Origin: Saururus chinensis | Taxonomy: Eukaryota > Streptophyta > Magnoliopsida > Piperales > Saururaceae | Reading direction: 5' to 3' | DNA length: 64,000 nt | NCBI GenBank assembly: GCA_035235625.1 | Contig: CP141150.1 | Location: forward strand, 1,736,001-1,800,000 | Part shown: piece by piece, positions 3,254 to 64,000 of the stretch | How positions within the stretch are numbered: position 1 is the stretch's first letter | Layout: each line of letters starts with the position of its first letter | The notes under the pieces: model-generated | Seen by the model: only the letters and a program-made list of their open reading frames with translations | Database searches by the model: none | Told to the model about the DNA's origin: nothing | Made by a program: the position numbers and the translations under genes

Positions 3254-3336
3254 CCACGTCCTGACTGTGCTTGCATAAGTTCTTCACCGTGCTGCTTCAG
3301 CGCCTGGAGAGGGCGGCCAGGCTTGCAGTCGCGCAA

Positions 3337-4573
3337 ATGGCCGTTTTCAGCGACCTGACCGAGGATTTGGTGCTCCTAGTCCTCTCGTGCCTGGCCATCA
3401 AGCCCCTCCACAGGCTGAAATGCGTATCCAGGACATTCCATGCACTTGTCTTGGCCTCCCTCTGGGCGAGAAGGAGCTCCTTTCCGGCCACCGGACTCAT
3501 TTACGAGACGGTGTATGAAGACCCTTGCGGGTCCAAGAAGAAGAAGCTGATCTGCGCGTCCAAGGACGTGGAGCACCTTGATCGGTTCACCTCCTTCGAC
3601 GTTGACCTCAGTTTCCTTCCCAGCCTGCCGGGGCTCAAGGTGGACCACTACTGCAACGGCTTGCTGCTTTGCCATGGAAGAGCCGCCTTGGGTCACCCTT
3701 TCTCCATCGTCCCCCTCGACACCTACTTCATCTGCAATCCCTCGACCAAGCAGTGGACTGCGCTGCCTCGGCCCAGGCCATGGCGGTCGCCGCCCTTCTC
3801 TATTCTAGTCAGCGACCCATCCGTCTCACCGCATTACAAAGTCATAAGGTACTGCTTCAGAGATCCGACAAAAACACAAATATATGTAAGAGAAAGCAAT
3901 TCTGACACTGATATTACTGCGATCGAGTTGCAGGTACTTCCACCGGAGGAACGACGAGGAGGAGGGGACAGACATCGAGCTGGAGATCTTCTCCTCCGAG
4001 ACGAAGAAATGGACCAGATCAACCATCTCCCACGGGGTGGTGGCGTACTACCTGCTGGAGAGGTCGGTGGCCGTGCTCAAGGGGGTGGTCTACCATCTGG
4101 CCTATCCGGCCGGCATTGCTGCCGTAGACGTGAACGGAGAGAAGCCGGAGGCCACCACCGTCGGCCTGCCCGACCAGATGGCCACGTCGTTCAACCGGTG
4201 CCTGGGGATGTCTCAGGGGCGGGTCCACTACTCCAGCATGTACCTCGGCAAGATCAAGGTCTGGAGGCTCAACGATGCGGCGGCCGAGGCATGGGAGCTG
4301 CGACATGAGGTGAATGTGTCACAGCTGATTAACTCTTGTCCGAGGAGAGTCACCATTAATGCTCGGTCGACCTATTATCCGTTTGTTCCGACTAGTTTCA
4401 GCCCTGAAAGGGAGGTGGTCTACCTGGAGATGACTGACGGGATCATTGCTTTTGATCTCTCAACACACAGGTTCGAGGAGTTCTTTGAAACGCGCTGCCA
4501 GTGTCTCTATGTATTTGCCAATCTCCATGTCTATCCTTTCTTCCCCTCCCTCTATGACCCATCTAGTGTTTGA
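3337..4573 (+). CDS. F-box protein with F-box-associated C-terminal region, two exons
   Basis: Exon 1 is 3337-3848 and exon 2 is 3934-4573. The 85-bp GT-AG intron sits in phase 2 (ATAAG|GTACTG ... TTGCAG|GTACTT). The spliced product is 383 residues. Residues about 4-45 form the F-box (SDLTEDLVLLVLSCL, then KPLHRLKCVSRTFHALV), which in this family binds SKP1 in an SCF ubiquitin ligase. A CNGLLLCHG motif near residue 106 and YFICNPSTKQW near residue 130 are hallmarks of the plant F-box-associated domain. The join gives HYKVIRYFHRR, which continues into an IEIFSSETKKW-like motif, supporting the splice. I chose the ATG at 3337 because upstream in-frame codons give only a TTG (3271) and the F-box starts at once. 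The substrate cannot be told. There are no breaks. GC-rich codon use contrasts with AT-rich flanks. Confidence 0.87.
3849..3933 (+). other. intron of the F-box gene (85 bp)
   Basis: It has canonical GT and AG ends and is AT-richer than the exons. It contains no stop in the exon 1 frame, so an unspliced transcript would read on to a stop at 4306-4308 and give an alternative product of about 323 residues with an unrelated C-terminus. Confidence 0.8.
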
Positions 4574-4940
4574 GGGGCATATTGGAGGCCATTGTTGTTA
4601 GTTCATCTTCTCTCTTTCTGCTGTTGTGTCGTGGAAGAACATTCTTATTTTTATTCTCATTTGGTTCTGGAAGTCATCTTCATATATAGATACCTCCATA
4701 AGAATTCATATTATATGGAAAAAGGTATACTATGTATATTGGAGGGTACTGTATTGATCAATGCCTTTCCGTTTCTTTCATTTTTGGTCGATTTAATCTA
4801 TAGGGTAATGAAAGTTATGTAATCAAATGCGTCAGTGCTATATGTACCTCCAAATATTTAAAGACTTTCCGTTCTATACAATACTAGTACTAGAATTATT
4901 AAGTGTCATGCGTTATTCAATTCAAAGCAATTCCATTTGT
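4574..4940. other. 3' flank of the F-box gene
   Basis: AT-rich sequence that presumably holds the 3' UTR. No clear polyadenylation consensus could be assigned. Short frames at 4592-4822 and 4827-5024 show no domain. Confidence 0.4.
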
Positions 4941-4944
4941 TTAA

Positions 4945-5780
4945 TTTGCTTGATTTATTTTCCATACGAAAATATTATTGATCGGCTTGACTTACATATC
5001 TATGGCAGATGCAATTCAGGTTAATTGTGTAAAATAGTATGTGTACGGGTGGAAAAAGAAATTGAGATGCCTGAACAAAACCTCATGTTATCAGTCTTCT
5101 TTTTTTTTTAGATCTTTTTTTCGTTAGGACAGCTTTCCATTATATTAAAGCAACAACTTTGTTCTAAAAAAAAACTGAGTTAACAAACCTGTACTGCTAT
5201 GGTGAGGTTTTAGGGATACAAACATCTTGAATTGATAACATTTTCTTGTCATTAGCCCCTTTTAATCTGGCCCAAGAGATAATTACGCAAGTAGAAATTT
5301 TATTTACTGTGATATTTGCTTCACTATCTACTTTTTGGCTTTTGCCTATCAGTATATATTAACTATTTATGAAGTTAAATTTGGTTATCGCTTCACAATC
5401 ATTTCCATACGAAAATGTAATACGGCTTGATAAACATATTTATGGTAGATTCAATTCAGGATAATTGTGTAATAGTATGTGGGTGGAAATAGAAATTGAG
5501 ATATATGAACAAAACCTCGTGTTGTTAGTCTTCTCCTCTTTTTGGGATTTTTTTTCCATTTGAACGGCACTCCATTATATTAAAAGCAGTAAGTGTGTAT
5601 CAAAAATAAAAATGAAAATAAGACAATAACTTGGTTAAAAAACCTGTATCTTGAATTGAGAACATTCTCTTGTCAGGTAGCCCCTTTTAATGAATGTGAT
5701 ATTTGCTTCACTGTACTTTTTGGCTTTTGCCTATCAGTATTGACTATTGAGAAGTGAAATTTGGTCGCCGCTTGAAAGTA
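4945..5780. repeat. ~440-bp tandem duplication
   Basis: The stretch at about 4960-5395 recurs at about 5401-5780. Both start TTCCATACGAAAAT and contain TCAATTCAGG, GAACAAAACCTC, CCATTATATTAAA and GGCTTTTGCCTATCAG in the same order. Copies differ by many small changes, so the duplication is old. Confidence 0.7.
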
Positions 5781-6044
5781 AAGAAGCTATTATGCAAGTA
5801 TAAGTTTCTCTTCCAAATTCTTCAATCAATATGAAACTTCAACCAATATGAAGAAAAATTGTAGATTCTTAAGCCAGCAAAACCAAACTATTAAGTGCTA
5901 CATCCGTTCCTTAGTAGTGATATTCCTACAACAAAACAATAATTCTCAAAATAAGATACCACAAATTAAAGAAATACAAATTTTATCCTAGATAGATCAA
6001 AGCCTAAGTAAAACCATGTCTTCAAAGGTTCTAATATTTCTTCG

Positions 6045-6700
6045 CCCTTAAATATGCACCGAAACAAGCTTGGGTTTTTCCAACTATTAGAGCAGCGGGT
6101 TTGTACTTTCTCAGTCCCATAACCAATTGATCTGGAGAAACCCATATGGCTTTGATGATGAGCAGGAAGATATTACATGCGGTCAATTATATCAGGTTGT
6201 CCAATATTCCTATGTTCTTTGATACTATAAAATAATCGTAGTTCATAATTGATTTTCTCAAAATAAATTCCGGCTCCTCTCTACTTAACATATTCTGCAA
6301 TAGCATAGTTGACAGGAAAGAATGACATATACGTTCTAGTCATAGTTTATACTGGCATATTAAACGCTTGATATATGGTGCTTCTTCCAACACGGTTATT
6401 CGTCTCAAGATGAGCATTGTTTGGGTAAATATATGTAACATACCAGGCTTGTATATAGTAGTAGGCCAAGTACCGTAGTAACTTAAATTTAATGTATTTT
6501 TAACACTCACCCTAGCTATTTGGATCAAACTATGAAAATGATGCATTGAACTTCCAATTAGCATAGAAAATGTTAAATGAAAATAAGAAGATTATGTTGA
6601 CAAGAAATATAGAGAGAGAAAAATAGAAGTTTAACACTTGAAATCCTTATCGAATAATTTATGTGTAAATATTTTTTAGGATTTGCCCAAAATAAACCTT
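6045..6700 (+). repeat. dispersed duplicate, copy 1 (partner at 10785-11830)
   Basis: It shares ordered blocks with 10785-11830: TCGCCCTTAA, GAGAA-CCCATATG, GATATTACAT-CGGTCAATT, ATATGATGCTTCTT-like, GGTAAATATATGTAACATAC and ACACTTGAAATCC. No coding content is recognised. The pair brackets the LTR element at 7363-10050 and its surroundings. Confidence 0.65.
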
Positions 6701-7264
6701 TAGGTCTATATGTCCAAAACGTGTACAAGATTTCATTGATTCTCAAAATAGATTTAGACATATGTGAGCAACCACACAAGTAGAAGCAAAATATGTACTT
6801 CATTTCGTCCTATATTAATAGCTACATTTGGAAACATAGTAGTTTTTATTGAACGGTAAAACCCACATCTAAGTGAAAGGAAAATAAGCTTATCATACAT
6901 TTTTTTAAGTATCCAACTATTTAAATTGAATAAAATAAACATATTAATATGGAATAATTTTTTTGCCAAATAAAGCTATTAATGTGGTACACAAGGAGTA
7001 CTTAATGACTCCTCTCCCCCTATTCTACTACTTCGATCTTTCTCATCCACTAAACTACACTACCTTGTCCTTTAGCTCGCTTCCACTCATCTCTGCCACA
7101 TCCCGTCCTTTGTCTCCTCCTCTTCTTTTTTGGAATTCGACAAAATTGATCAGAAACTAGTTTAAAAACCATTAAAAACATATTTATAAGCTCCAATCTT
7201 AAAAAAATTGAATCCATAAATACTTTCAACAATTTAAAAAAAGAACAAATTAATTTTATTTGAA
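6701..7264. other. gene-free AT-rich DNA
   Basis: No gene, RNA or structured repeat was recognised. Short open frames here lack domains. Confidence 0.5.
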
Positions 7265-41560: not shown

Positions 41561-42533
41561 GTAAGTGGTTTTCCCAATTTTAAATGCAATATTGTATCTG
41601 GTCGTGTCTAGTTCTGTAAATAAATGTTTTCTTCTTCTGGACAGCCTATTTGATGTCGTGCTCTCGACTGCCGGGTAAAGCAGGCAAATCTAGAAAGACG
41701 GCCAGAAAAGCCCCGCCGGTGAGAGGCTGTTTCGGTGCAATTCCAGGTAGGAACTCGTCCACCACGTTCTCAATATCATAGGCCACATCTTTAACTTGTC
41801 TTACCCATTCTTTCACACCCTTTCTCCTGTCCTGAAGTGTCTCTGCATCTATCAAAAAGGCACTTATGCTTCTTAAACTTTTTTCAAATTCCATCATTTC
41901 GTGGCGCACTCCACCCAATAACTCCGCCTCTTCACTGGTAGGTGCTCTGCAACAAGATGCACCACAGCTCCGGCCATCTGAACTCCGGCAATTTCGCAAG
42001 CTCGAGCTTCTCTGTGTTGATCTATCTCTCACTACTGAACTTCTGACGCAGAAAGAGCAAAGCAGGTGTCGATTCTGTTGACCTACTGGGATAAAAAAGA
42101 ATAGGTTTGTTGAATTATTGAGTGTAAGAACTAAGAAGCCAAGCCACACGAATCTGGTAAGTGGTTTTCTTAATTTTAAATGCAACTTTGTATGCTAGTT
42201 GTGTCCGGTTCTGTAAATACATGTTCTCGACAACATTTTTTTACTCTGGTAAGTGGTTTTCCCAATTTTAAATGCTACTTTGTATTCTGGTCGTGTCTGA
42301 TTCTGTAAATAAATGTTTTCTTCTTCTTCTCGAGATCATTTTTTTCTATATGGTGAGTGGTTATCCCAATTTTAAATGCAACTTTGTATGCTGGTCGTGT
42401 CTGGTTCTGTAAATAAATGTTTTCTTCTCCTTCTTCTCAACAACTTTTTTTGTTATCTGCTAAGTGGTTTTTCCAATTTCAAATGCAACTTTGTATGCTG
42501 GTCATTTTTGGTTCTGTAAATAAATGTTTACAT
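41530..42533 (+). repeat. 90-110-bp tandem repeat centred on CTGGTAAGTGG, ~5 copies
   Basis: Each unit has a TCTCGACA-type start, TTTTTT, TCTGGTAAGTGGTTTTCCC, AATTTTAAATGCAACTTTGT, GGTCGTGTCTGGTTCTGTAA and ATAAATGTTTTCTTCTTC. Splice-like sites start at 41561, 42157, 42249, 42353 (GTGAGT) and 42460 (mutated to CTAAGT). A ~490-bp segment with the NLR fragment lies between copies 1 and 2. Confidence 0.8.
41646..41977 (-). pseudogene. CNL disease-resistance gene fragment (Rx N-terminal coiled-coil domain)
   Basis: The minus strand reads MAGAVVHLVAEHL from an ATG at 41977. After a one-base frame change near 41940 it continues as SEEAELLGGVRHEM, LRSISAFLIDAETLQ, VKEWVRQVKDVAYDIE and NVVDEFLP, stopping at 41646. 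These are the conserved positions of the Rx N-terminal domain of plant CC-NB-ARC-LRR receptors, including the EDVID-related motif (here DIENVVDEF). No NB-ARC (P-loop, kinase-2) or LRR sequence follows within the window, so only about 110 codons of a usual ~900-1300 remain. It is flanked on both sides by copies of an unrelated tandem repeat, so it looks like an inserted or deletion-derived piece. Intact NLR genes detect pathogen effectors. This one cannot encode a receptor. Confidence 0.85.
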
Positions 42534-43350: not shown

Positions 43351-45090
43351 ACTCCTACTGTTGAATCCATGAAGTGCTACTTGCAAGTGAAAATATTCCA
43401 TGGTTTCCACCTAGATGAACTAGTAGATTGTAGGATCTTGTAATGGTTAGGCCCTCTTTTTGTTCGACGCAATAAGGACTTGTCTATTAGGTACCTTATT
43501 TCACTTGCTATAATTCCCATCATAATAGCATGTGCAATCGACCTTGTTGGAGTCCATTAAGTTTCGTCGTTTCACTTGTGAGGTAGAAAACTAGGTTGCT
43601 TTACATTTGATTAGTAATAGCTTTAATTTACTCTTTATAAGAGATAGTAATACATAGTGTGCATCTTTTTTTGAGCCAATATAGAACGTAGTTATAAGGT
43701 TTCCTCGTTTCACTTGTGAGGTAAAAATGGAGGTTGCTTTAAATTTGATTATTAATACTTTTAATTCATATTATAGTTAATTTGAAAAAGCTTGCGTAGT
43801 GGTCATGGGGACCACATACATCCATGATGCATGAGCCGGTCATCGGGATAGCAATAGCGAAGTTTTTTGCTTGCATGCTTGTGAGTTTCACTTTGCGTTG
43901 TCCCAATAACATGAGCTTATGTGGTTTACCTTGAAATCGTTGGATGTGTGTAGTGTCTTCTTTATTAACAATCGTTATTACTCAGCTGAGAAGAATTATT
44001 ATTTTATAAGAGAGCAATACATAGTGCGCATCTTTTCTTTGAGCCAATATGGAACGTAGTTATAAGGTTTCCTCGTTTCACTTGTGAGGTAAAAATGGAG
44101 GCTGCTTTAAATTTGATGATTAATACTTTTAATTAATATTTTAGTTAATTTGAAAAAACTTGTGTAGTGGTCATGGGGACCACATACATCCATGATGCAT
44201 GAGTCAGTCATGGGGATAGCAATAGCGAAGTTTTTTTGCTTGCATGCTTGTGAGTTTCACTTTGCGTTGTCCCAATAACATGAGCTTATGTGGTTTACCT
44301 TGAAATCATTGGATGTGTGTAGTGTCTTCTTTATTAACAATCGTTATTACTCAGCTGAGAAGAATTATTATTTTATAAGAGAGCAATACATAGTGCACAT
44401 CTTTTCTTTGAGCCAATATAGAACGTAGTTATAAGGTTTCCTCGTTTCACTTGTGAGGTGAAAATGGAGGCTGCTTTAAATTTGATTATTAATACTTTTA
44501 ATTAATATTTTAGTTAATTTGAAAAAACTTGTGTAGTGGTCATGGGGACCACATACATCCATGATGCATGAGTCAGTCATCTGGATAGCAATAGCGAAGT
44601 TTTTTTGCTTGCATGCGTGTGAGTTTCACTTTGCATAGTCCCAAAAACATGAGCTATGTGGTTTACCTTGAAATCGTTGGATGTGTGTAGTGTCTTCTTT
44701 ATTAACAATCATTATTACTCAGCTGAGAAGAATCAATATTTTATAAGAGATAGTAATACATAGTGCACATCTTTTCTTTGAGCCAATATAGAACGTAGTT
44801 ATAAGGTTTCCTTGTTTCACTTGTGAGGTAAAAATCTTAAATTGATTATTAATACCTTTAAATTCATACTTCAGTTAATTTAAAAAAGCTTATGTAGTGG
44901 TCATGGAGACTACATATATCCGTGATGCATGAGCCGGTATATTGGGATAGCAACAGTGAAGTTTTTTTGCTTGCATGTTTGTGAGTTTTACTTCACGTTG
45001 TCCTGATAACATGAGCCATGTGGTTTACCTTGAAATCATTGGATATGTGTAGTTTCTTCTTTATTAACATTCATTGTAACTTAGCCTAGA
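43351..45090 (+). repeat. ~369-bp tandem repeat, 4 copies
   Basis: GAGCCAATATAGAACGTAG starts at 43673, 44041 (one change), 44410 and 44780, at steps of 368-370 bp. Units also contain TTTCACTTGTGAGGTAAAA, GGTCATGGGGACCACATACA and TTGCTTGCATGCTTGTGAG. The middle copies are the most alike, and flanking DNA holds worn partial units from about 43351 and on to about 45840. Confidence 0.88.
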
Positions 45091-53020: not shown

Positions 53021-55905
53021 TTTTATATGATCCAAAGGAGGTATAGATATTACTACTTGACAAAGTTATTACTGCTTTTATTTAATATATTAGCTTGAAT
53101 GTCAATTTTTTTTTTGTGGTCTGTAGGTGCTAGCTGGAATTGCAGAGGTTTACTTTTTCTCCATCTAACCCAATGGACAAGAGAATAACACTAGCATATA
53201 TAGATAGTGCAGCAAAAGGAGCAACAAAAGAGGTACATCAGATCACTTTTTCATCTTTAAATTCTATTCTTTAGTGAATACAAAAATTAAACCTCACCTT
53301 TCTTCTATTTTTATTTCTAATGATGCAGGAATTACAATATAAAGAATGACTAGTATGGATGTGTTGTGCGGAATGCTTACTCCAAACAAGCTCACAGCTC
53401 AATTATGTATATGGTTCCTTGACATTTGTATGACATTAAAATGCTTCCAACAAAGTATTCGTCATACAAAGTTTGTCATGACTACTATCTTGACTGATTT
53501 TAAATAAACTACATTTTTTAATTAGAGTTTGCATCAAATGCACAGGTCTTACTGTTGGATTTGGATACTAAATTACAGGTTTTTTGCTAAAGGGGTAGAT
53601 TAGGGATAGTGATGCATTGATGGGTGTCTTATAGTTTCTATGTTATATGATCCGAAGGAGGTATAGATATTACTACTTGACAAAGTTATTGCTGCTTTTA
53701 TTTAATATATTAGCTCGAATGTCATAATTTTTTTTTGTGGTATGTAGGTGCTAGCTGGAATTGCATAGGCTCATTTTTTTCTCCAACTAACCCAATGGAC
53801 AAGAAAATAACACTAGCATACATAGATAGTACAGCAAAAGGAGCAACAAAAGAGGTACATCATATCACTTTTTCATCTTTAATTATTGTTCTTTAGTGAA
53901 TAAAAAAATTAAACCTCACCTTTCTTCTATTTTTATTTCTATTGACATAAAAGAATGACCGGTATGGATGTATTGTGCGAAACACTTACTCCATATAAGC
54001 TCACAATTGACAAGAGCATTATTGAGGTTATGTATGTGGTCCTTGTCATTTGTATGACATTAAAATGCTTTGAACAATGTATGGTGATCCAAAGTTTGCC
54101 AAGACTATAATCTTGACTGATTTTAAATAAACTATATTTTTTAATTAGATTTCTATCAAATGCACAGGTCCCACTATGGGATTTGGATATTAAATTACAG
54201 GTTTTTGTTAAAGGAATGGATTATGGATAGTATTGTGCGAAACACTTACTCCATATAAGCTCACAATTGACAAGAGCATAATTGAGGTTATGCATGTGGT
54301 CCTTGTCATTTGTATGACATTAAAATGCTTTGAACAATGTATGGTGATCCAAAGTTTGCCAAGACTATAATCTTGACTGATTTTAAATAAACTATATTTT
54401 TTAATTAGATTTCTATCAAATGCACAGGTCCCACTATGGGATTTGGATATTAAATTACAGGTTTTTGTTAAAGGAATGGATTATGGATAGTATTGTGCGA
54501 AACACTTACTCCATATAAGCTCACAATTGACAAGAGCATAATTGAGGTTATGCATGTGGTCCTTGTCATTTGTATGACATTAAAATGCTTTGAACAATGT
54601 ATGGTGATCCAAAGTTTGCCAAGACTATAATCTTGACTGATTTTAAATAAACTATATTTTTTAATTAGATTTCTATCAAATGCACAGGTCCCACTATGGG
54701 ATTTGGATATTAAATTACAGGTTTTTGTTAAAGGAATGGATTATGGATAGTATTGTGCGAAACACTTACTCCATATAAGCTCACAATTGACAAGAGCATA
54801 ATTGAGGTTATGTATGTGGTCCTTGTCATTTGTATGACATTAAAATGCTTTGAACAATGTATGGTGATCCAAAGTTTGCCAAGACTATAATCTTGACTGA
54901 TTTTAAATAAACTATATTTTTTAATTAGATTTCTATCAAATGCACAGGTCCCATTATGGGATTTGGATATTAAATTACAGGTTTTTGTTAAAGGAATGGA
55001 TTATGGATAGTGTTGCACTGATAGATGTCTTGATAGTTTCTATATTATATGATCTAAAGGAGGTATAGATATTATTGTTTGACAAAGTTATAACTACTTT
55101 TATTTGATATATTAGCTCGAATGTCAAATAATTTTTTTGTGTGGTGTGTAGGTGCAAGCTGGAATTGAAGTGGTTCACTTTTTCTCCATCTAACCCAACG
55201 GACAAGAGAATAATGCTAGCATACATAGATAGTGCAGCAAAAGGAGCAACAAAAGAGGTATATCATATCACTTTTTTTATTTTCAAATTCTATTATTTAG
55301 AGAATACAAAAATTAAACCTCACCTTCTATTATTTTTTTCTATGATGCAGGAATTATAATATTAAGAATGACTAGTATGGATGTATTGTGCAAAACGCTT
55401 ACTCCAAACAGGTTCACAGCTGACAAGAGCATAGTTGAGGTAGTGTATGTGGTTCCTTGATATTTGTATGACATTAAAATGCTTCCAACAAAGTATGCAT
55501 GATACAAAGTTTGCGACAACTACAATCTTGACTGATTTTAAATAAACTACATTTTAATTAGATTTGTAATCAAATGCACAGGTCATAAACTACTGGATTT
55601 GGATCATAAACTACAGGTTTTTGCTAAAGGGGTGGATTAGGGATAGTGATGCACTGATGGCTGTCTTGACAGTTTCTATGTGATATGATCCAAAGGAGGT
55701 ATAGATATTACTGCTGGACAAAGTTATTACTGCTTTTATTTGATATCTTAGCTTGAATTTTAGATTATTTTTTTTGTGGTCTGTAGGTAAAAGCTGGAAT
55801 TGAAGAGGTTCACTTTTTTTCCATTTATCCCAAGTAATAAGAGAATGACACTGGCATACATAGATAGTGCAACAAAAGGAGCAATAAAAGAGGTACATCA
55901 TATCA
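53021..55905 (+). repeat. ~640-bp unit array, block B (about 4 units) with exon-like segments
   Basis: It continues block A. Segment c copies lie at 53127-53232, 53748-53854, 55152-55257 and 55787-55892, and segment a copies near 53328, 53950 and 55350. The units share TATGATCCAAAGGAGGTATA and TGCAGCAAAAGGAGCAACAA. Copies in block B are closer to one another than to block A in several diagnostic phrases. The last unit ends at about 55905, where unrelated DNA begins. Confidence 0.75.
53971..55010 (+). repeat. exact 4 x 260-bp tandem amplification inside one array unit
   Basis: TATTGTGCGAAACACTTACT starts at 53971, 54231, 54491 and 54751, exactly 260 bp apart. Each ends GGAATGGATTATGGATAG. Copies differ at only a few places by eye. 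Each contains segments a and b. The amplification ends where the normal unit text (TGTTGCACTGATAG) resumes at 55011. Confidence 0.95.
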
Positions 55906-56089
55906 CTTTTTTATCTTTACCATATTCAAGCAGCCAACTAGATGAATAATTATAGCCATTGTATCTCTGGCAACAAAAGAGTAAATAAATCTACCAGACG
56001 AAGAGCTCAAAAGTCAAAGATCAACCAAAATATGGACTACTAATAGAAAAGGAAGAGAACTGCATCTCTTTAACTTCATAGCTCTTTTT
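55906..56089. other. transition between unit array and pyrimidine array
   Basis: Ordinary mixed-sequence DNA with no recognised feature. Confidence 0.4.
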
Positions 56090-56865
56090 CAATCTTATTT
56101 CCTCCCTCTAATAATTGCCCATCACTCTCTTGTTGCCTCTCTCTAGTTTTCTTTTCATATCTCCTCTCTCAAATCGCCTTTCTCTATTTACATCTCTTTC
56201 ATGGCCTCTCTGTCTTATTGTCTCTCTTTATAATTGTATTTCCTCATCTCCTCTCTCTAATCCCCTCTCACTCTCTTATTGCTTGCCTCTTTCTAGTTGT
56301 CTTTCCATATCTCCTCTCTCAAATCGCCTTTCTCTGTCTCTATCTCCTCTTTCATTGCCTCTCTTTCTCTCTCCCCATCACCCTCTCCCTTTATAATTGT
56401 CTTTCCTCATCTCTTCCAATTACCTATCCCCTTCCTTTGGTCTCTATTCACTCCCCTCTCTCTAGTTCTCTCCCTCCTTCCCTAGCTCCTCCCTCTCTTT
56501 GGTTTCCTCCCTCCCTTGGCTCTCTCTAATTGCTTCTCTCCCCTCTCTCTAATTGCTTCTCTCTAGTTCTCTCCCTCCTTCCCTAGCCCCTCGCTCTCTT
56601 TGGTTTCCTCCCTCCCTTGCTCTCTCTAATTGCTTCTCTCCCCCTTCCACCCCCACTGCCTTCCTCTTATCCCCCTCCCTTATTTCCCTAATCATCTTCT
56701 TCCCTCTCTCTTTTTTACACTCTTTGCCCTTCCCTCCCACATTCCCTCTTGATCTCCTGATCTACCTCCCTTGCTCTCTCTCTCTCTAAGCGCCTGTCCT
56801 TTCCTCCATCCCTCGCTCTCTAATCGCCTCTGTCTCTCCTCATACCTCACTGACTTCCTGCTCTC
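56090..56865. repeat. pyrimidine minisatellite, block 1
   Basis: The plus strand is almost wholly C and T apart from TAATTG boxes. Typical units are CTCTCTAATTGCTTCTCTC and CCTCCCTCTCTTTGGTTTCC. A duplicate of about 100 bp lies at 56465-56560 and 56570-56640. Long open frames here are low-complexity Ser/Leu/Pro and not genes. Confidence 0.85.
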
Positions 56866-56869
56866 TATT

Positions 56870-57860
56870 TAATTGTGTTATAATTGTGATGAACTATATG
56901 CCTTTGTGGTTGACAATGCACCTGACCCCATGGATTCTACATGCCCTATGACTGAGTTTGACCCTAATCTTGTTGCGTTGGTAAATGATGTGGACCCCTA
57001 CTTGTCATTGTATGCCTATGAAGGAGGTAATGCTCCTTCCAACACCATGCACATCAATGACTAGATGGAAAAACATCTTGTCTTAGTTCTTACTAATATA
57101 GAGAGCACACCCATAGTTTCATTAATGATGTTGTTGCTAAAGAGCTAGGCTTGTCGATTTCTGAGTGTCCTGCCTTTGATGTTATGGTAAGAGATGGTGG
57201 TGCTAAGCTTCACAATATGGGGGTTGGTCGCAATGCATGCCTTCTTGCTCAAAGCCTTCCCATCCATGCTCATTTTTATGTCCCACCTATCAAGGAAGCA
57301 GATGTTGGTTGTCCGTGGGATGGACCGGCTGGGTATGTTGTACAAAGTAGAATGGAATTTGACCTTACGTCAATGAGCTTTGACACATTGGCAAGGTCAA
57401 GTGCCACATTACCACCCAAAAATTGCGCATCATTTAGAGGCCTCAACTAAAGTATGCATGGGTCCTCCAACTTCTTGCAATTAATGAGAGTATTGATACT
57501 TCATGGCCTTGAGGTTAAGGCCTTGCAGAAGCAGTGGTGGAATGTTATGACCCAGTGTAAGCCATAGTACTTTGTTTAGGATAGTCTTTAGACTCCTACT
57601 TGCTTAGGTCTTTAATTCCTAGTTTGATAAGGAAGTTTACTTTTAGTATACTCTTCATTAGGTTCCAATTAGTAAAGGCTAAGCTTTGCCTATAAATGTC
57701 ATGTAATGGCTTTGGCAATTCATTAGAGAAATTAATTAGAACTCAGTAGTAGTCTATTTACCTTTTTCCAACATCTCTTCTCTCTCCTTAATTTCATCTA
57801 TCTTCCCAATCCATCATCCCCATCGTCCCGCTACAAACCCGTTGTAGACCACCCATCTAA
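56870..57860 (+). mobile_element. Ty3/gypsy relic: protease piece joined to polypurine tract and LTR
   Basis: The reading frames at 56873-57064 and 57151-57450 match the retropepsin region of plant gypsy polyproteins (motifs LGLSISECPAFDV, LPIHAHFYV, KEADV). At 57505-57542 a CTTGAGG...GCAGAAGCAGTGGTGGAA purine-rich tract leads into an LTR-like start TGTTATGACCCAGTG (57543), with CTATAAATG as TATA near 57690. Most of the element between protease and LTR is absent. The left LTR is not seen. Fossil, broken. Confidence 0.7.
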
Positions 57861-58060
57861 AACTCCTCTAATTGTCTTTTCCTCTATGAATCCTTTGTTT
57901 CCCTTTCTCTCCTCTCTTACTCTCATTCTAATTGCCTCTTTGTCTCTAATTGTCAACCCCCTCCAAATTCCTCTCTTGCACTCATTCTAAAATCCTCTCT
58001 ATTTCTCTCCCTCCTTCATTGTCTCTCTTCCTCTCATTTTGAAACCAAAACTTTTCTACA
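57861..58060. repeat. pyrimidine minisatellite, block 2
   Basis: Same CTCTAATTG-type units as block 1, following the LTR-like segment. Confidence 0.7.
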
Positions 58061-58430
58061 TAGATTAATCAAAATTATTGAAGGAGAAAGAAATTAGAGA
58101 AACTTAGAAACAACAATGAGAATATATATCCTTAGAAGGTAGGACAATTGAGTTGCTTAACAAAGGATGCTTAGATGACTAGATATGCACTAGTTTTAGG
58201 TCAATTATTAACTACTAGGAGATGGTTGAGCATTTAGGTACAGCCTTGACTCCTCAGCCGTAAATGTTGGAGGCTATAGAGGTGAACAACTCACAAATTA
58301 TGGCTAGAAATACTATGACGGAAAGCAACACAGGACATAAAATCACCCTAGTAAGCACATGGCATTGAATGAGGCCATTGTTGAAGCATGGAGAGAACAC
58401 CAAAAGAAATAACCTGTCACTCTTTGATTT
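58061..58430. other. non-repeat spacer inside the pyrimidine array
   Basis: Purine-balanced DNA of about 370 bp. No motif is recognised. It could be gypsy gag debris, but this is not demonstrable. Confidence 0.4.
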
Positions 58431-60395
58431 CTTTCTCCCCCTCCTTCACCACCTTCCTTTTATCTCCCTCCGTCCCTCGTTTTTCTAACTCTCTCTAACC
58501 TGCCCTCCCAAATCCTCTTGCTCTCACAAATGGCCTTCCTCGCTCTCTCTAATTGCCTCTCTCCCCTATGTTGAGTCCCTTTTTCTCTCCAATTATCTGA
58601 GTCCTGGCTTTCTCTTTCTTTATGTCTCACCCTTGCTCTCTCTAATTATCTTCCTTTCCGTCTCTCTTTTGTCCCTCTCTTCCTTGCTCTATCTCAATCT
58701 CCCTCTCTTTGTAAACACCTCTCCTTCCGTCATTCCCTCTCTCTTTAATTAACAAATCTCTCCCCATCTTGCACTCACTCCTTTCTTTCTTTAATTGCCT
58801 TTGACCCTCTATTTATGCTCTCTCTAGTGGTCCCTCCCCCTCCCTCTCTCCTCCCTTCCACATCTATCTAATTGGCTCTCTCCCTACGGAATTTGTCATT
58901 ATCCATTTCTCTCTTCTCTTGCTCTCAGTCTAATAGATTATAATATCTCTAATTGTCTCTCCCTCTCGTTCTTTGTCCCTCCCTCACACTCTCTTTAATT
59001 GTTTACCTCCCTTTCATTCATTGCCTCTATCCCCTCACTCTCCTATGCTCTCCCTAATTCCTCTCCCTCTCTCCTTCCTGCTCTATCTAATTTACTCGTA
59101 CTTCTCCACACTCTCTCTCTAATTATCTCTCCCGCTTGTCAAGTCCTTGTACTTGCCCACTTTTTATGTCAACCTCATTCTAATCGCCGCACTCTATCTA
59201 ATTGTCTCTCCCTCTCCCGCCTTTGCTCTCTCTATTTGTCTCCTCCCTCTCCCTCCCTTAGTCTCTCTCTAATTGCCACTCTCTCCCCCTCCCTTGTTCT
59301 ATCTATTTCTCCCCTTCTCTAATTATCTCTCCTCTTCGTTAAATCCTTGTCGTTGCCTCTCTTATTTGTTGCTTTGCTGCTCTCTCTAATCGTGTCTCCC
59401 TCTATCTCTCTCTCTAATTGTCTCCCTGCCTCTTTCATTGCTTTCCCTCTCCCCTTTTGTCCCTCTCCCTCCCTTCCTCCCTCCCTCTCTTTCAATCTCT
59501 CTCTATTTACCACTCACCCTCTCCCCATCCCTTGTCCTCTCTTTCATTGCTTCTCTCCCTCTTTCCTTTTGTCCATCTTCCTCCCTCCCTCCCTTTGTCT
59601 CTCTCTCTAATTGCCACTCTCCCCATCCCTTGTTCTCTCTATATCTCTTGTAGTTGCCACTCTCTCCCCCTCCCTTATTCTCCCTATCTCTCTCTAATTG
59701 CCTCTCCCTCCCTTGTTCTCTCTTTCTCCTCTCTAATTACCTCTCTTCATCCCTCCTTCTCCAATTATTTTTCTCTTCTTCCTCTAATTATTTCTCTCCC
59801 TTTCTTTCTAATTGTTTCTCTCTACCCTTTCCCTCCCTCCCTCGATTTTCTCTCATTGTAATTGCCACTCTCTTTTTCCTCATGCTCTATCTTGAATTGC
59901 CTCGCTTCCTCCTTCCCTTCCAACCAGTCTCTTTTTCATTTCTTCTCACCCCTCCCTCATTACCTCCACCTTATTTCCCTCCCTCCCATATCTCACAAGT
60001 TGTGTCCCCCTAATTATCTCCTTCCCTCCCTTGTTTTTTTTTTAATTCTCTTTGACCCGCCCTCACACATCCTCTATCTCACTGAAATTGCTTCTCCTGC
60101 CCTCTCTAATTGCCTCTCTTTGTTCCTTCCCCTTCGCCATTTGCCTCTCTCCTCTGTCGAATCCCTCTTTTTTCCTCCCTCTTACTATCTCTCTTCTCGC
60201 TCTGCACTCTGATTTCACTCCCTCTTTTCTCTCCCCCCCCACCCTCAATCTACTCTCTAATTGCCTCATTTGCCTTCCTTCCCAACTAGTCTCTCTGTAA
60301 TTGTTCCTCTCCCCCTCACTTCCTCTTATCTCCATCTCCCACATCTCTCCAGTTGCCTCTCCCTAATTATCTTCCTTGCTCTTTCTAACTCTATG
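58431..60395. repeat. pyrimidine minisatellite, block 3
   Basis: About 2 kb of C/T-rich units with the recurring box TCTCTAATTGCCTCTC or TAATTATCTC. A longer phrase (TCATTGTAATTGCCACTCTC, CTCCCTCCCATATCTC and TAATTCTCTTTGACC in order) at about 59855-60065 recurs near 62530 and 63280, showing a higher-order repeat. Confidence 0.88.
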
Positions 60396-61864
60396 TGTCA
60401 CGACCTGATTTTCCATAGGATTTTTTTTCTTCCAATAATTACAATACCATATCAACATAAAATAAAATTCATACTAAAATATTCACTTCATTGAATTCCT
60501 CAAGAAAACTCGGTTGTTCATTTTTAATGATCTTTGGCTAGGATGATTACCATGCCGATGAACTGAATTATTAAGGTAATTAAAGTAACCTAATATTTAG
60601 ATCGAATCAACATCGTTTAATGTTAACTGCCTACGTACCACTTCAAGGTAGAAGATGATCGGATCTATACGTAGTTCTCCATGATACTACGTGAAATACA
60701 TCATTCAACATCTTTATTTACATAGCATTCATACATTATGTAAAAGAACATTGTCATCATATCCAAACATGGTCATTATATATGTATCATAACTTAACAT
60801 AATATTTACATGATCATTCGATATCCATCATGTTATAACCTTTACATAATCATCGTATGTATCATATAACATAATATTTATATAGCTCATTCCTTATATC
60901 ACCCACAGAATTAGCTATGTGATCCGTGAGTTGCGCTGTGGGTTGTTAGTGCAAAATGTTCGATAAGTTTTCAAACTACAAGATGTATAGTGGTAAGTAG
61001 AGAAGTGACTTGTGGAGTACTATCCATCTTGTAGCCTATTTGATAGAAAAGAATTTAGAAAAAAAATTTCGGGTTATGATCTCATTATACAATAACTGAG
61101 AAGTAGATTTTTAAAACGAATTTTGTTACTAGGCTCTTGAGCGGATTTTATGTGGAATAGGATGAGTTGATGTTGGCCACATCAATTCTTTGAGTTCTAC
61201 CTAGACTACGCACGGTTGATCACCCATCCTCCCCCTCTCTCACTCTTCCTCTTTTGCTTTTGCAGATGACCACCCACTGCACTTTCGCACCGGCGCAACT
61301 CACGGATCACATAGTTAATTCTGTGGGTGATATAAGGAATAGGCTATATAAATATTACGTTATATGATACATACGATGATTATGTAAAGGTTATGACATG
61401 ATGGATATCGAATGATCATGTAAATGTTATGTTAAGTTATGATACATATATGATGACCATGTTTGGATATGACTAAGTTTGGATATATATCATGTTTGGA
61501 TATGATGACCATGTTCTTTTGCATAATGTATGAATGCTATGTAAATAAATATGTTGAGTGATGCATTTCACGTAGTATCATGCTAGGGCATTCAGAACTA
61601 CGTATGGATCTGATCTTCTTCTACCTCGAAGTGGTACGTAGGCAACTAACATTAAACGATGTTGATTCGATCCAAATATTAGGTTACTAATCTTTTCTTT
61701 TAAGATGTTGTAAGTATTTAGTTATCTTAATAATTTAATTCATCGGCATGGTAATCATCATAGCCAAAGATCATGAGAATATTTTAATATGAATTTTATT
61801 TTATGCCGATATGGTATTGTTATTATTTGAAAAAAAAAATCCTTTGAAAAATCAGGTCGTGACA
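60396..61864. mobile_element. foldback element, 1.47 kb, arms of ~550 bp
   Basis: The left arm 60396-60936 and the right arm 61293-61864 are inverse complements from TGTCACGACCTGATTTT to GATCCGTGAGTTGCGC. They run through AATATTTAGATCGAATCAAC, GTACCACTTC-AGGTAGAAG and CACGTAGTATCAT on opposite strands. The loop is 60937-61292. The flanks CTATG and CTTTG may be a worn 5-bp target duplication. The TGTCACGACC...GACA termini and the GTAGTATCAT...GGATCTGATCTTCTT text recall LTRs of this region, so the arms may be two LTRs in opposite orientation. No coding sequence. It is inserted in the pyrimidine array. Confidence 0.88.
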
Positions 61865-64000
61865 CTTTGTCCTTCCCTAAACCCTCTCCCTCTATTGAAT
61901 GCCTACCTTGCTCTCACTCTTCCCCCTCTCTCCGTAATTGCCTCATTTCCCCATTCCCTTCCTCTTCCTCCCTCTCCCCCTTCTATTCCTAAAACCTCCC
62001 TCACTTGGTCAATATTTAAATGTCTTTCATTCCCTCCTCACTCTCTATTTGCTTCTCTATCTCTCCATCCCTTCCTCAATCGCTCCTTTCCTCTTTAATT
62101 GGCTTTCGCTTCCCCCTATTTATGCTCTCTCTAATAGCTCATTGTCCCTCACTCCTTCCCTCCCTTTTTATCTAATTAGTTTTCTCCCCCCTAATCCCAT
62201 TCTAATTGCCCTGCTCTCTCTAATTGTCTCTTCTTTACTTTTGTCATTCGTTTATCGTCTCCCTCCCTCACTCCGTTAGCCTTTTTCTAATTGCCACTCT
62301 CCTTGTCCCTTCTCTCTTTTCTCTAATGAGTCTCTCCCTTCCAGCAAATCCTTGTCTTTGCCTCTCTTTTTTGTTGCTCTCATTCAAATTTCCACTCTCT
62401 AATTGTCTCTCCCTCCATCGCTCTCTTTACTTGTCTCCCTACCTCTTTCATTGCCTCTCTCCTCCCTCCCTCCCTCCCTCGATCTCTCTCTATTTGCCTC
62501 TCCATCTCTCTCCCTCGCTTTCTCTCTTTTCTCTCATTGTAATTGCCACTCTCTCCTTCCCTTCTAATCAGGCTCTCTTTAATTTCTTTTCTCCACCTTA
62601 TCTCCCTCCCTCCCATATCTCTCTAGTTGTCTTCCTAATTAGTTCCTTCCCTCCCTCATTTTTTTCTAATTCTCTTTGACCTTTCCTCTCACATCCTCTT
62701 GCTCTCAAATTGCCTCCCTCGCTCTCTCTAATTGCCCCTTTCCTCGCTCTGTCTCTCTTTCTCTCTCCTGTGTCCTCCCCTCCCACACTCCCTCTCCATC
62801 TGTCGAATTGCCTCCCTTGCTTTCCCCCTCTCTTGGTAATTGCCTTGTTTCCCTTGTTCTTTCTCTATAATTGTCTCTTTCCCCCCCTCTATGTAATTAC
62901 CTCATTCCATCATTCACTCTCTCGAATTACCTATTTCCCCTCTCTAAATCCCTCTCGTTCCCTCTCTTTACTTCTCTCTCTCTCTTCTATCTCTAAACCC
63001 TCAATCCCTCGCTTGATCTCTATCTAAACGCCTTTCCTTCCCTCCCTTCCTTAGTCCCTAATTGCCTCTCTATCTCTCCATCCCTTGCTCCATCCCTCCT
63101 TTCTCTCTTTTAATTGCCTTTCTCCCCCTCGTTTTGCTCTATCTAATAGCTCATTCTCCCCCTTCCTTGCTCCTTCCCTCCCTATCTAACTAATTGGCTT
63201 TCTCCACCCACACCCTCTCTAATTGCCTCTCCATCCCTCCCTCTCTAATTTTTTCTCTCTCCTTTCTTTCTCTCTTTTCTCTCATTTTAATTGCCACTCT
63301 CTACTTCCCTTCTAACGAGTCGTAAAATTTCTTCTCCCCCCTTCCCCTTCATTACCTCCTCCCTCATCTCCTTCCCTCCCATATATTTTTTGTTGCGTAT
63401 CCTTATTATCTCCTTCCCTCCTTTATTTTTTTGAATTCTTCGTGCCTCTCTCTACTATGTCCAATCCCACTTTTTTCCACCCTCCCTTGCTTTTCTAATT
63501 CCCTCCCTTTCCTATCTTTATTTGCCTTTCTCCTATCCTTCCCTCCTTTTCTTTATAAAAAAACTTGCCCTTCCAATTGCCTCTCTGTCTCTTTTCATCC
63601 CTCGCTTACTTGCTCCTTTCTCTTTTTAATTGCCTCCCCCCTCACACTCTCTGTCACTATCGTGCTCTCCTTTTTGCCTCGGTTGCTTCGTCTTTCTATA
63701 TTTGATTCTCTCTATCTCCATCGTACCCTCACTCTTTCACTATCTTTTTTATTACCTTTCTAATTGTCTCTCCCTCCTCTCTCTCTCTCCCCTTCCTCTC
63801 TCCTTTGCTCTATATGTTGCCTCTCACGCTCTCTCTAATTCCCTATCACTCTCGTTCATCTATGTAATTGCCTCTCTTCCTCCTTTTCCAACCTGTTTCT
63901 CTATAACTTCTTCTCTCCCCCTCCTGCCCTGACTTCCTCCCTCTTATCTTTCTCCTTTCCAAATGTTTCCAGTTGCCTCTCCCTAATTATCTTCATTACA
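61865..64000. repeat. pyrimidine minisatellite, block 4 (runs off the window)
   Basis: It continues block 3 after the foldback element with the same boxes and two more copies of the higher-order phrase (about 62530 and 63280). The open frames of 60-150 codons in it (for example 62224-62679) are low-complexity and lack stops only because the plus strand is nearly free of A and G. Confidence 0.88.

Follow-up and report, generated by a model that had tools for sequence, protein, structure and literature searches.

An apparently decaying, pyrimidine-rich minisatellite with higher-order blocks at four loci in Saururus chinensis, probably spread by segmental duplication

Plant genomes contain degenerate minisatellites and low-copy satellites with higher-order repeats, as well as (CT)n/(GA)n microsatellites; a third point of comparison is the class of Polycomb response elements with GAGA motifs to which BBR/BPC proteins bind. 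Here we describe a pyrimidine-rich tract punctuated by TAATTG boxes, which lies at the end of a 64,000-nucleotide stretch of the Saururus chinensis genome (the window: GCA_035235625.1, contig CP141150.1, hereafter C11:1,736,001-1,800,000, in an assembly of 516 Mb in 11 contigs). The tract resembles the first class in its tandem units, blocks, spread by duplication and slippage-type insertions and deletions (indels), but is unlike that class in general in being about 80% C+T on one strand, in its blurred short period and in its occurrence at four loci on three chromosomes. With plant CT microsatellites it shares 42 CT runs of 4 to 7 units and short indels; however, it is kilobases long, is arranged in ordered blocks and carries the TAATTG box above Markov expectation. 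Dense GAGA/TCTC-type sequence is what it has in common with the Polycomb response elements, from which it differs in that its site density equals that of order-2 composition.

Overall, we consider it likely that the tract is an old, neutral and decaying locus-specific minisatellite, rich in pyrimidines and organised in higher-order blocks, that was spread by segmental duplication. It seems ordinary in kind. No function was detected, and on the best reading of the data triplex, R-loop and GAGA-factor roles are not required. A literature search for CTCTCTAATTG gave no satellite description by title, and no description of the tract sequence was found in the search listings and the opening lines of abstracts, in agreement with the initial annotation, which had matched the tract to no known satellite.

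Composition, boxes and higher-order blocks

The four segments of the tract within the window (Table 1) sum to 5,184 nt and have 82% C+T on the + strand (T 2201, C 2033, A 637, G 313), with GC skews between -0.76 and -0.71 in three 1-kb windows (starts 59001, 62001 and 63001). The strand bias and the start near 56090 given by the initial annotation are confirmed by the first segment (83% C+T from 56086), although its description of the strand as nearly all C and T was too strong, about 18% of the four segments being A or G. The predicted continuation past the window edge is also real: the tract extends as far as the equivalent of window position 65190 and then, with breaks, to about 71530 (approximately C11:1,807.5k).

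Ordered repeat units beyond base composition are a strong feature of this sequence and give it the higher-order organisation of a minisatellite. Block copies A and B align with 676 identities, 142 mismatches and 186 gap positions (score 296; highest of 12 order-3 simulations 122), and the two sub-blocks with 200 identities, 37 mismatches and 26 gap positions (score 201; highest of 20 simulations 102). In the continuation, C11:1,800.29-1,801.18k aligns with 59242-60168 (score 237) and C11:1,800.03-1,801.18k with 61884-63027 (score 248), the simulated maximum being 121 in both cases; the pairwise scores among copy A, copy B and C11:1,800.29-1,801.18k range from 237 to 296, against at most 122 in simulations. 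All 10 tested segment pairs exceeded the maximum of their own 12 simulations, the weakest of them narrowly (113 vs 109). In a scan with overlapping windows, whose comparisons are consequently non-independent, 197 of 2,236 comparisons exceeded the simulated 99.9% threshold, where about 2 were expected. Offsets of 1000-1199 nt were the commonest (39 of the 197), with smaller groups at 1500-1599, 1900-1999, 2100-2199, 2300-2399 and 3500-3599 nt. Both the copies of a long ordered phrase and the growth by large-block duplication that had been proposed from a first inspection are borne out by these alignments and by the offset peak at 1.0-1.2 kb; self-similarity clearly surpasses what base composition provides.

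The box itself occurs 42 times in the four segments, compared with simulated means of 1.13, 6.24 and 20.17 under Markov orders 1, 2 and 3 (100 simulations per order). In the window and its continuation together (7,747 nt) it is found in a single orientation, with 63 TAATTG against 3 CAATTA, and the consensus of the 60 boxes with enough flank is near CTCTCTAATTGcCTCTCTCTC. The boxes are only slightly more evenly spaced than random: the coefficient of variation (CV) of the TAATTG spacing is 0.713, versus 0.894 +/- 0.105 for random sets (26 of 1000 as even or more), and that of AATT[GA] is 0.677 versus 0.846 +/- 0.085 (7 of 1000). For a regular unit of some 10-100 nt, Tandem Repeats Finder (periods <=500) yielded nothing but short local arrays in the tract, alongside the weakly even box spacing. 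The regularly recurring boxes of the initial annotation are accordingly real in number but weak in regularity.

Table 1. Coordinates, strand and main characteristics of the tract segments, their blocks and the associated repeats (window positions)
Feature	Position	Strand	Remarks
Pyrimidine-rich box tract, segment 1	56086..56872	+	C+T 83.1%; 6 TAATTG
Pyrimidine-rich box tract, segment 2	57760..58040	+	C+T 77.6%; 3 TAATTG
Pyrimidine-rich box tract, segment 3	58425..60405	+	C+T 81.8%; 15 TAATTG
Pyrimidine-rich box tract, segment 4	61866..64000	+	C+T 81.6%; extends beyond window end
Higher-order block, copy A	59226..60158	+	Aligns with 61886-62774
Higher-order block, copy B	61886..62774	+	Partner of 59226-60158
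Higher-order sub-block	62000..62241	+	Partner of 63008-63265, offset about 1.0 kb
Higher-order sub-block	63008..63265	+	Partner of 62000-62241
Dispersed repeat fragment inside tract, LTR-retrotransposon-like by reading	56873..57759	+	Genome matches
Non-pyrimidine stretch between segments	58041..58424	+	Part resembles C11:1,801.19-1,801.3k by eye
Dispersed element with long terminal inverted repeats inside tract	60395..61865	.	Arms: 60395-60936 and 61293-61865 (approximate)
Neighbouring tandem array, 260-nt unit x 4.1	53963..55015	+	99% matches; homologous sequence beside tract on C8 too
Neighbouring tandem array, 369-nt unit x 3.9	43634..45069	+	92% matches; homologous sequence on C8 too

Four related loci and the divergence of their copies

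The tract is present at four loci on three chromosomes, C8:34.257-34.290M, C9:37.288-37.304M, C11:1.600-1.615M (C11a) and C11:1.792-1.808M (C11b), and its surroundings are homologous between them. These include an AT-rich module (C11:1,801.85-1,803.28k) beside a locus-specific segment (C11:1,801.2-1,801.86k) whose 7 matches all fall within the C8, C9 and C11 tract loci; the counts from genome searches given here and below are lower bounds. At all four loci it is chiefly the + strand, as defined by the neighbouring arrays and the module, that carries the pyrimidines and boxes. On C8 the composite region is in the opposite orientation and has the module three times; on C9 it is shorter and more diverged. 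Both C11 loci are part of a stretch, about 82-84 kb long, that occurs twice: C11:1,544.6k-1,628.5k (1544623-1628462) matches 1,740.6k-1,822.1k (1740600-1822108) at an offset of 187-196 kb, with about 2% substitutions in the compared flanks (the comparison leaves out 1,547.0-1,580.7k). For instance, window positions 4600-7000 have a 98% copy at C11:1,544.6k.

A search of the whole assembly for the box indicates that it is locus-specific. Exact matches to CTCTCTAATTGYCTCTC fall within the four loci in 18 of 19 cases. With at most one mismatch the pattern is found in 120 places; among the 100 listed, 68 are in the four loci and 32 elsewhere (the other 20 sort after C11:1,795,194), and the reversed-pattern control gives 33 places genome-wide. 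A dispersed satellite or transposable element was rejected, as the tract occupies four loci and, among the places listed, the strict pattern is near control level elsewhere. The absence of a transposable-element match holds for the tract itself, which matches no dispersed family, but not for two stretches inside it that are dispersed repeats. The exact box match at C1:29,693,228 was also discarded, its surroundings reading as a different, less CT-rich sequence. On the same chromosome, C1:29,694,063-29,697,354 has 75-83% homology to C11:1,766.3-1,775.3k, upstream of the tract, and is near a moderately CT-rich stretch with one exact box, the CT strand being opposite to that on C11.

Between C11a and C11b, substitutions are as frequent in the tract as in the chosen flanks: 22.0 per kb in 6,056 aligned bases and 21.1 per kb in 12,593, respectively. 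Gap openings, by contrast, reach 15.2 per kb in the tract and 3.7 in the flanks. As many as 81 of the 92 tract gaps are of 1-4 nt and not of whole units (37 of 1 nt, 22 of 2 nt, 10 of 3 nt and 12 of 4 nt), and 4 are of 10 nt or more; these indel counts cover aligned stretches and exclude larger, alignment-breaking changes and the tract outside the alignments. Length mutation is raised, as in minisatellites. Identity is 0.927 at box positions and 0.949 at the other tract positions outside near-boxes, and selection on the box in this recent pair was rejected on that basis. The equal substitution rate, the short indels and the box identity therefore argue for slippage-type drift; the recent pair gives no indication of constraint, and the older pair a weak one at most.

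We propose that the array began with the amplification of a short, CT-rich unit built around a TCTCTAATTG core, and that blocks of about 1.0-1.2 kb, with roughly 8-12 boxes each, were then copied in tandem, as their alignments and offsets suggest; unequal exchange or replication-based copying may have been the cause. The tract would then have been carried to C8, C9 and C11 together with the 260- and 369-nt arrays and the AT-rich module, a composite region whose homology and order are observed. Segmental duplication was presumably the carrier, and a duplication would also account for the second C11 copy 187-196 kb away. The dispersed repeats now present in the tract may have come to lie there by insertion. 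Its present drift consists of flank-rate substitutions in the recent pair and of frequent 1-4 nt indels, which fit polymerase slippage in C/T runs.

Several points weigh against this account. No ancestral unit could be derived; similarity between blocks is about 80-84% over aligned bases, and their short-range periodicity is indistinct. The result is less clear-cut for a looser 23-letter pattern with two mismatches allowed: of its 54 places, 19 are in the four loci and 35 outside them, and its control gives 22, so that related short CT/TAATTG strings appear somewhat above control in the rest of the genome. The C11 pair could be a false duplication, with two haplotypes placed in tandem, although the divergence of C8, with 86 substitutions per kb in the flanks, and of C9 seems too great for such an artefact. 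In the C8/C11b comparison the substitution rate is 107.5 per kb in the tract and 85.8 per kb in the flanks, and the letters of the box agree somewhat more often than identical letters in other parts of the tract (0.795 vs 0.757 for A, 0.932 vs 0.882 for T and 0.821 vs 0.685 for G). This weak trend may reflect weak constraint, homogenisation or alignment bias.

Coding, DNA-structural and protein-binding alternatives

A protein-coding repeat was rejected for either strand, since 37 of the 92 indels are of 1 nt and the longest stop-free frame (151 codons) is shorter than in all 20 order-2 simulations. Among eight stop-free pieces in or near the tract, six had no match in Pfam and two (pieces 5 and 8) had sub-threshold matches only; a PDB search with two stop-free pieces gave 0 matches, and so did Rfam at the gathering score for 9 sources.

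The strong strand asymmetry and the GC skew described above would be expected of DNA that forms triplexes (H-DNA) or R-loops and in this way takes part in recombination or replication, and the purine strand has 41.6 G runs of 3 or more per kb, with at least 40% G in 200 of its 358 100-nt windows. However, just 5 of these windows reach 50% G. Mirror repeats with arms of at least 10 nt number 8, compared with 2.35 +/- 2.41 under order 1 and 5.6 +/- 3.6 under order 2 (20 simulations each), and are therefore not in excess over order 2, while the longest unbroken pyrimidine run (40 nt) is no longer than the simulated means of 42.8 and 41.3. We regard such a structural role as extremely unlikely. 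Of the first interpretation of this locus, the minisatellite-like array with its box, its block growth and its continuation past the edge has stood; the potential for H-DNA beyond composition has not.

The tract could also be imagined as a dense platform for GAGA-binding BBR/BPC proteins, acting as a silencer similar to a Polycomb response element. According to PMC6477699, these proteins recognise GAGA/TCTC as well as extended GA/TC repeats and bring in Polycomb complexes, so that DNA of this type is a known target. The site RGARAGRRA occurs 118 times in the 7,747 nt (15.2 per kb, versus 0.49 per kb in window positions 1-55500), more than the maximum of 95 in 100 order-1 simulations. Yet order-2 composition already yields 103.6 +/- 12.8 sites, and the 42 runs of (CT)4 or longer compare with 43.0 expected under order 2; an excess of GAGA-type sites over composition was accordingly rejected for RGARAGRRA. 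PMC6477699 also reports that RGARAGRRA failed to explain its binding signals and that GAGA tetranucleotides did; the counts above concern RGARAGRRA. Together with the lack of constraint between the C11 copies, this makes a platform function very unlikely.

The AT-rich module, a noncoding family and neighbouring features

A clustered, apparently noncoding repeat family is found on C1, C5, C7, C8, C9 and C11 (sequences L026, L027 and L029-L042), with at least 49 matches listed for one 451-nt query (40 of 89 candidates scored). Each member combines a conserved 5' portion with a single CT/TAATT box and an AT-rich portion; one of them, L027, forms an array of a 463-nt unit x 4.0 at 99%, and no Rfam match was found in the 5 members tested. 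On C9, eight successive matches to a piece of the AT-rich module, about 754 nt apart, occupy C9:37,296,305-37,302,794.

The tract might be a hugely expanded version of the CT box of this family, whose members have one box like CTCTCTCTTTCTTTCTCTAATTGGCTCC directly before the sequence homologous to the module. All 16 family sequences tested (15 places, since L026 and L029 coincide) have matches inside the module, not only in C11b but in C8 and C9 as well, although the sequence is AT-rich and the matches are on both strands. Of the 15 aligned family rows 12 contain TCTCTAATT and the other 3 a close variant. In five rows the module homology appears by eye to start at AAGAAGC.TGACCA, just after the box (a sixth, L035, was uninformative), and orientation and order are common to tract, module and box. 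The similarity in sequence does not bear this out: the box region of the family (-60 to +75) does not score clearly above simulations against the tract (40 each for order 2 and order 3), with 47 vs means of 45.5/46.8 for C11b, 50 vs 45.6/47.8 for C8 and 44 vs 40.2/41.1 for C9. A short core query in C9 is borderline, its score of 42 beating 40 of 40 order-2 simulations but being reached by 3 of 40 of order 3. Moreover, the locus-specific segment, of about 650 nt, separates the tract from the module. As the similarity failed against simulations though position and orientation fit, an origin from the family box remains a rival explanation, and a rather unlikely one. If it were true, a seed box and the array that grew from it would be found next to each other in the genome. 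It is highly improbable that, at one ancestral locus, the family box grew into a one-strand pyrimidine array of kilobase size that today serves GAGA proteins as a platform; in that case a single regulatory box would be present in the genome both as a seed and in its expanded state.

Both dispersed repeats inside the minisatellite tract occur in C11a and C11b, and no target-site duplication was established for either on inspection by eye. The first is LTR-retrotransposon-like by reading only. Positions 56880-57760 have at least 40 matches listed on 9 of the 11 chromosomes, including itself and the C11a copy (97%), with 40 of 189 candidates scored; its 117-aa piece (57097-57447) matched nothing in Pfam or PDB, and the Pfam matches of its 63-aa piece (56873-57061) were all sub-threshold. 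The second shows six inverted-repeat pairs, its inverted ends of about 540-570 nt starting GTGTCACGACC. Positions 60395-60935 have at least 41 matches listed, including its own two arms and the C11a copy, with 40 of 345 candidates scored, and those listed outside C11:1.6-1.8M are 75-85% identical. The neighbouring 260-nt array looks far younger than the adjacent CT tract. Elsewhere in the window, Pfam identified an F-box and an At3g26010-like beta-propeller within 3265-4570; the two domains of this F-box gene (3265-4573) are in different frames, so it is possibly a broken copy or contains an intron. An Rx_N domain was found on the minus strand at 41649-42194.

As a decaying minisatellite, the tract illustrates in detail how, once copied by segmental duplication, a degenerate array rich in C and T grows old, with substitutions at the rate of the flanks, about fourfold more indels and no conservation of the box in the recent pair. 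It also suggests caution, since a conspicuous box in a repeat rich in pyrimidines does not have to mean that the repeat has a function.

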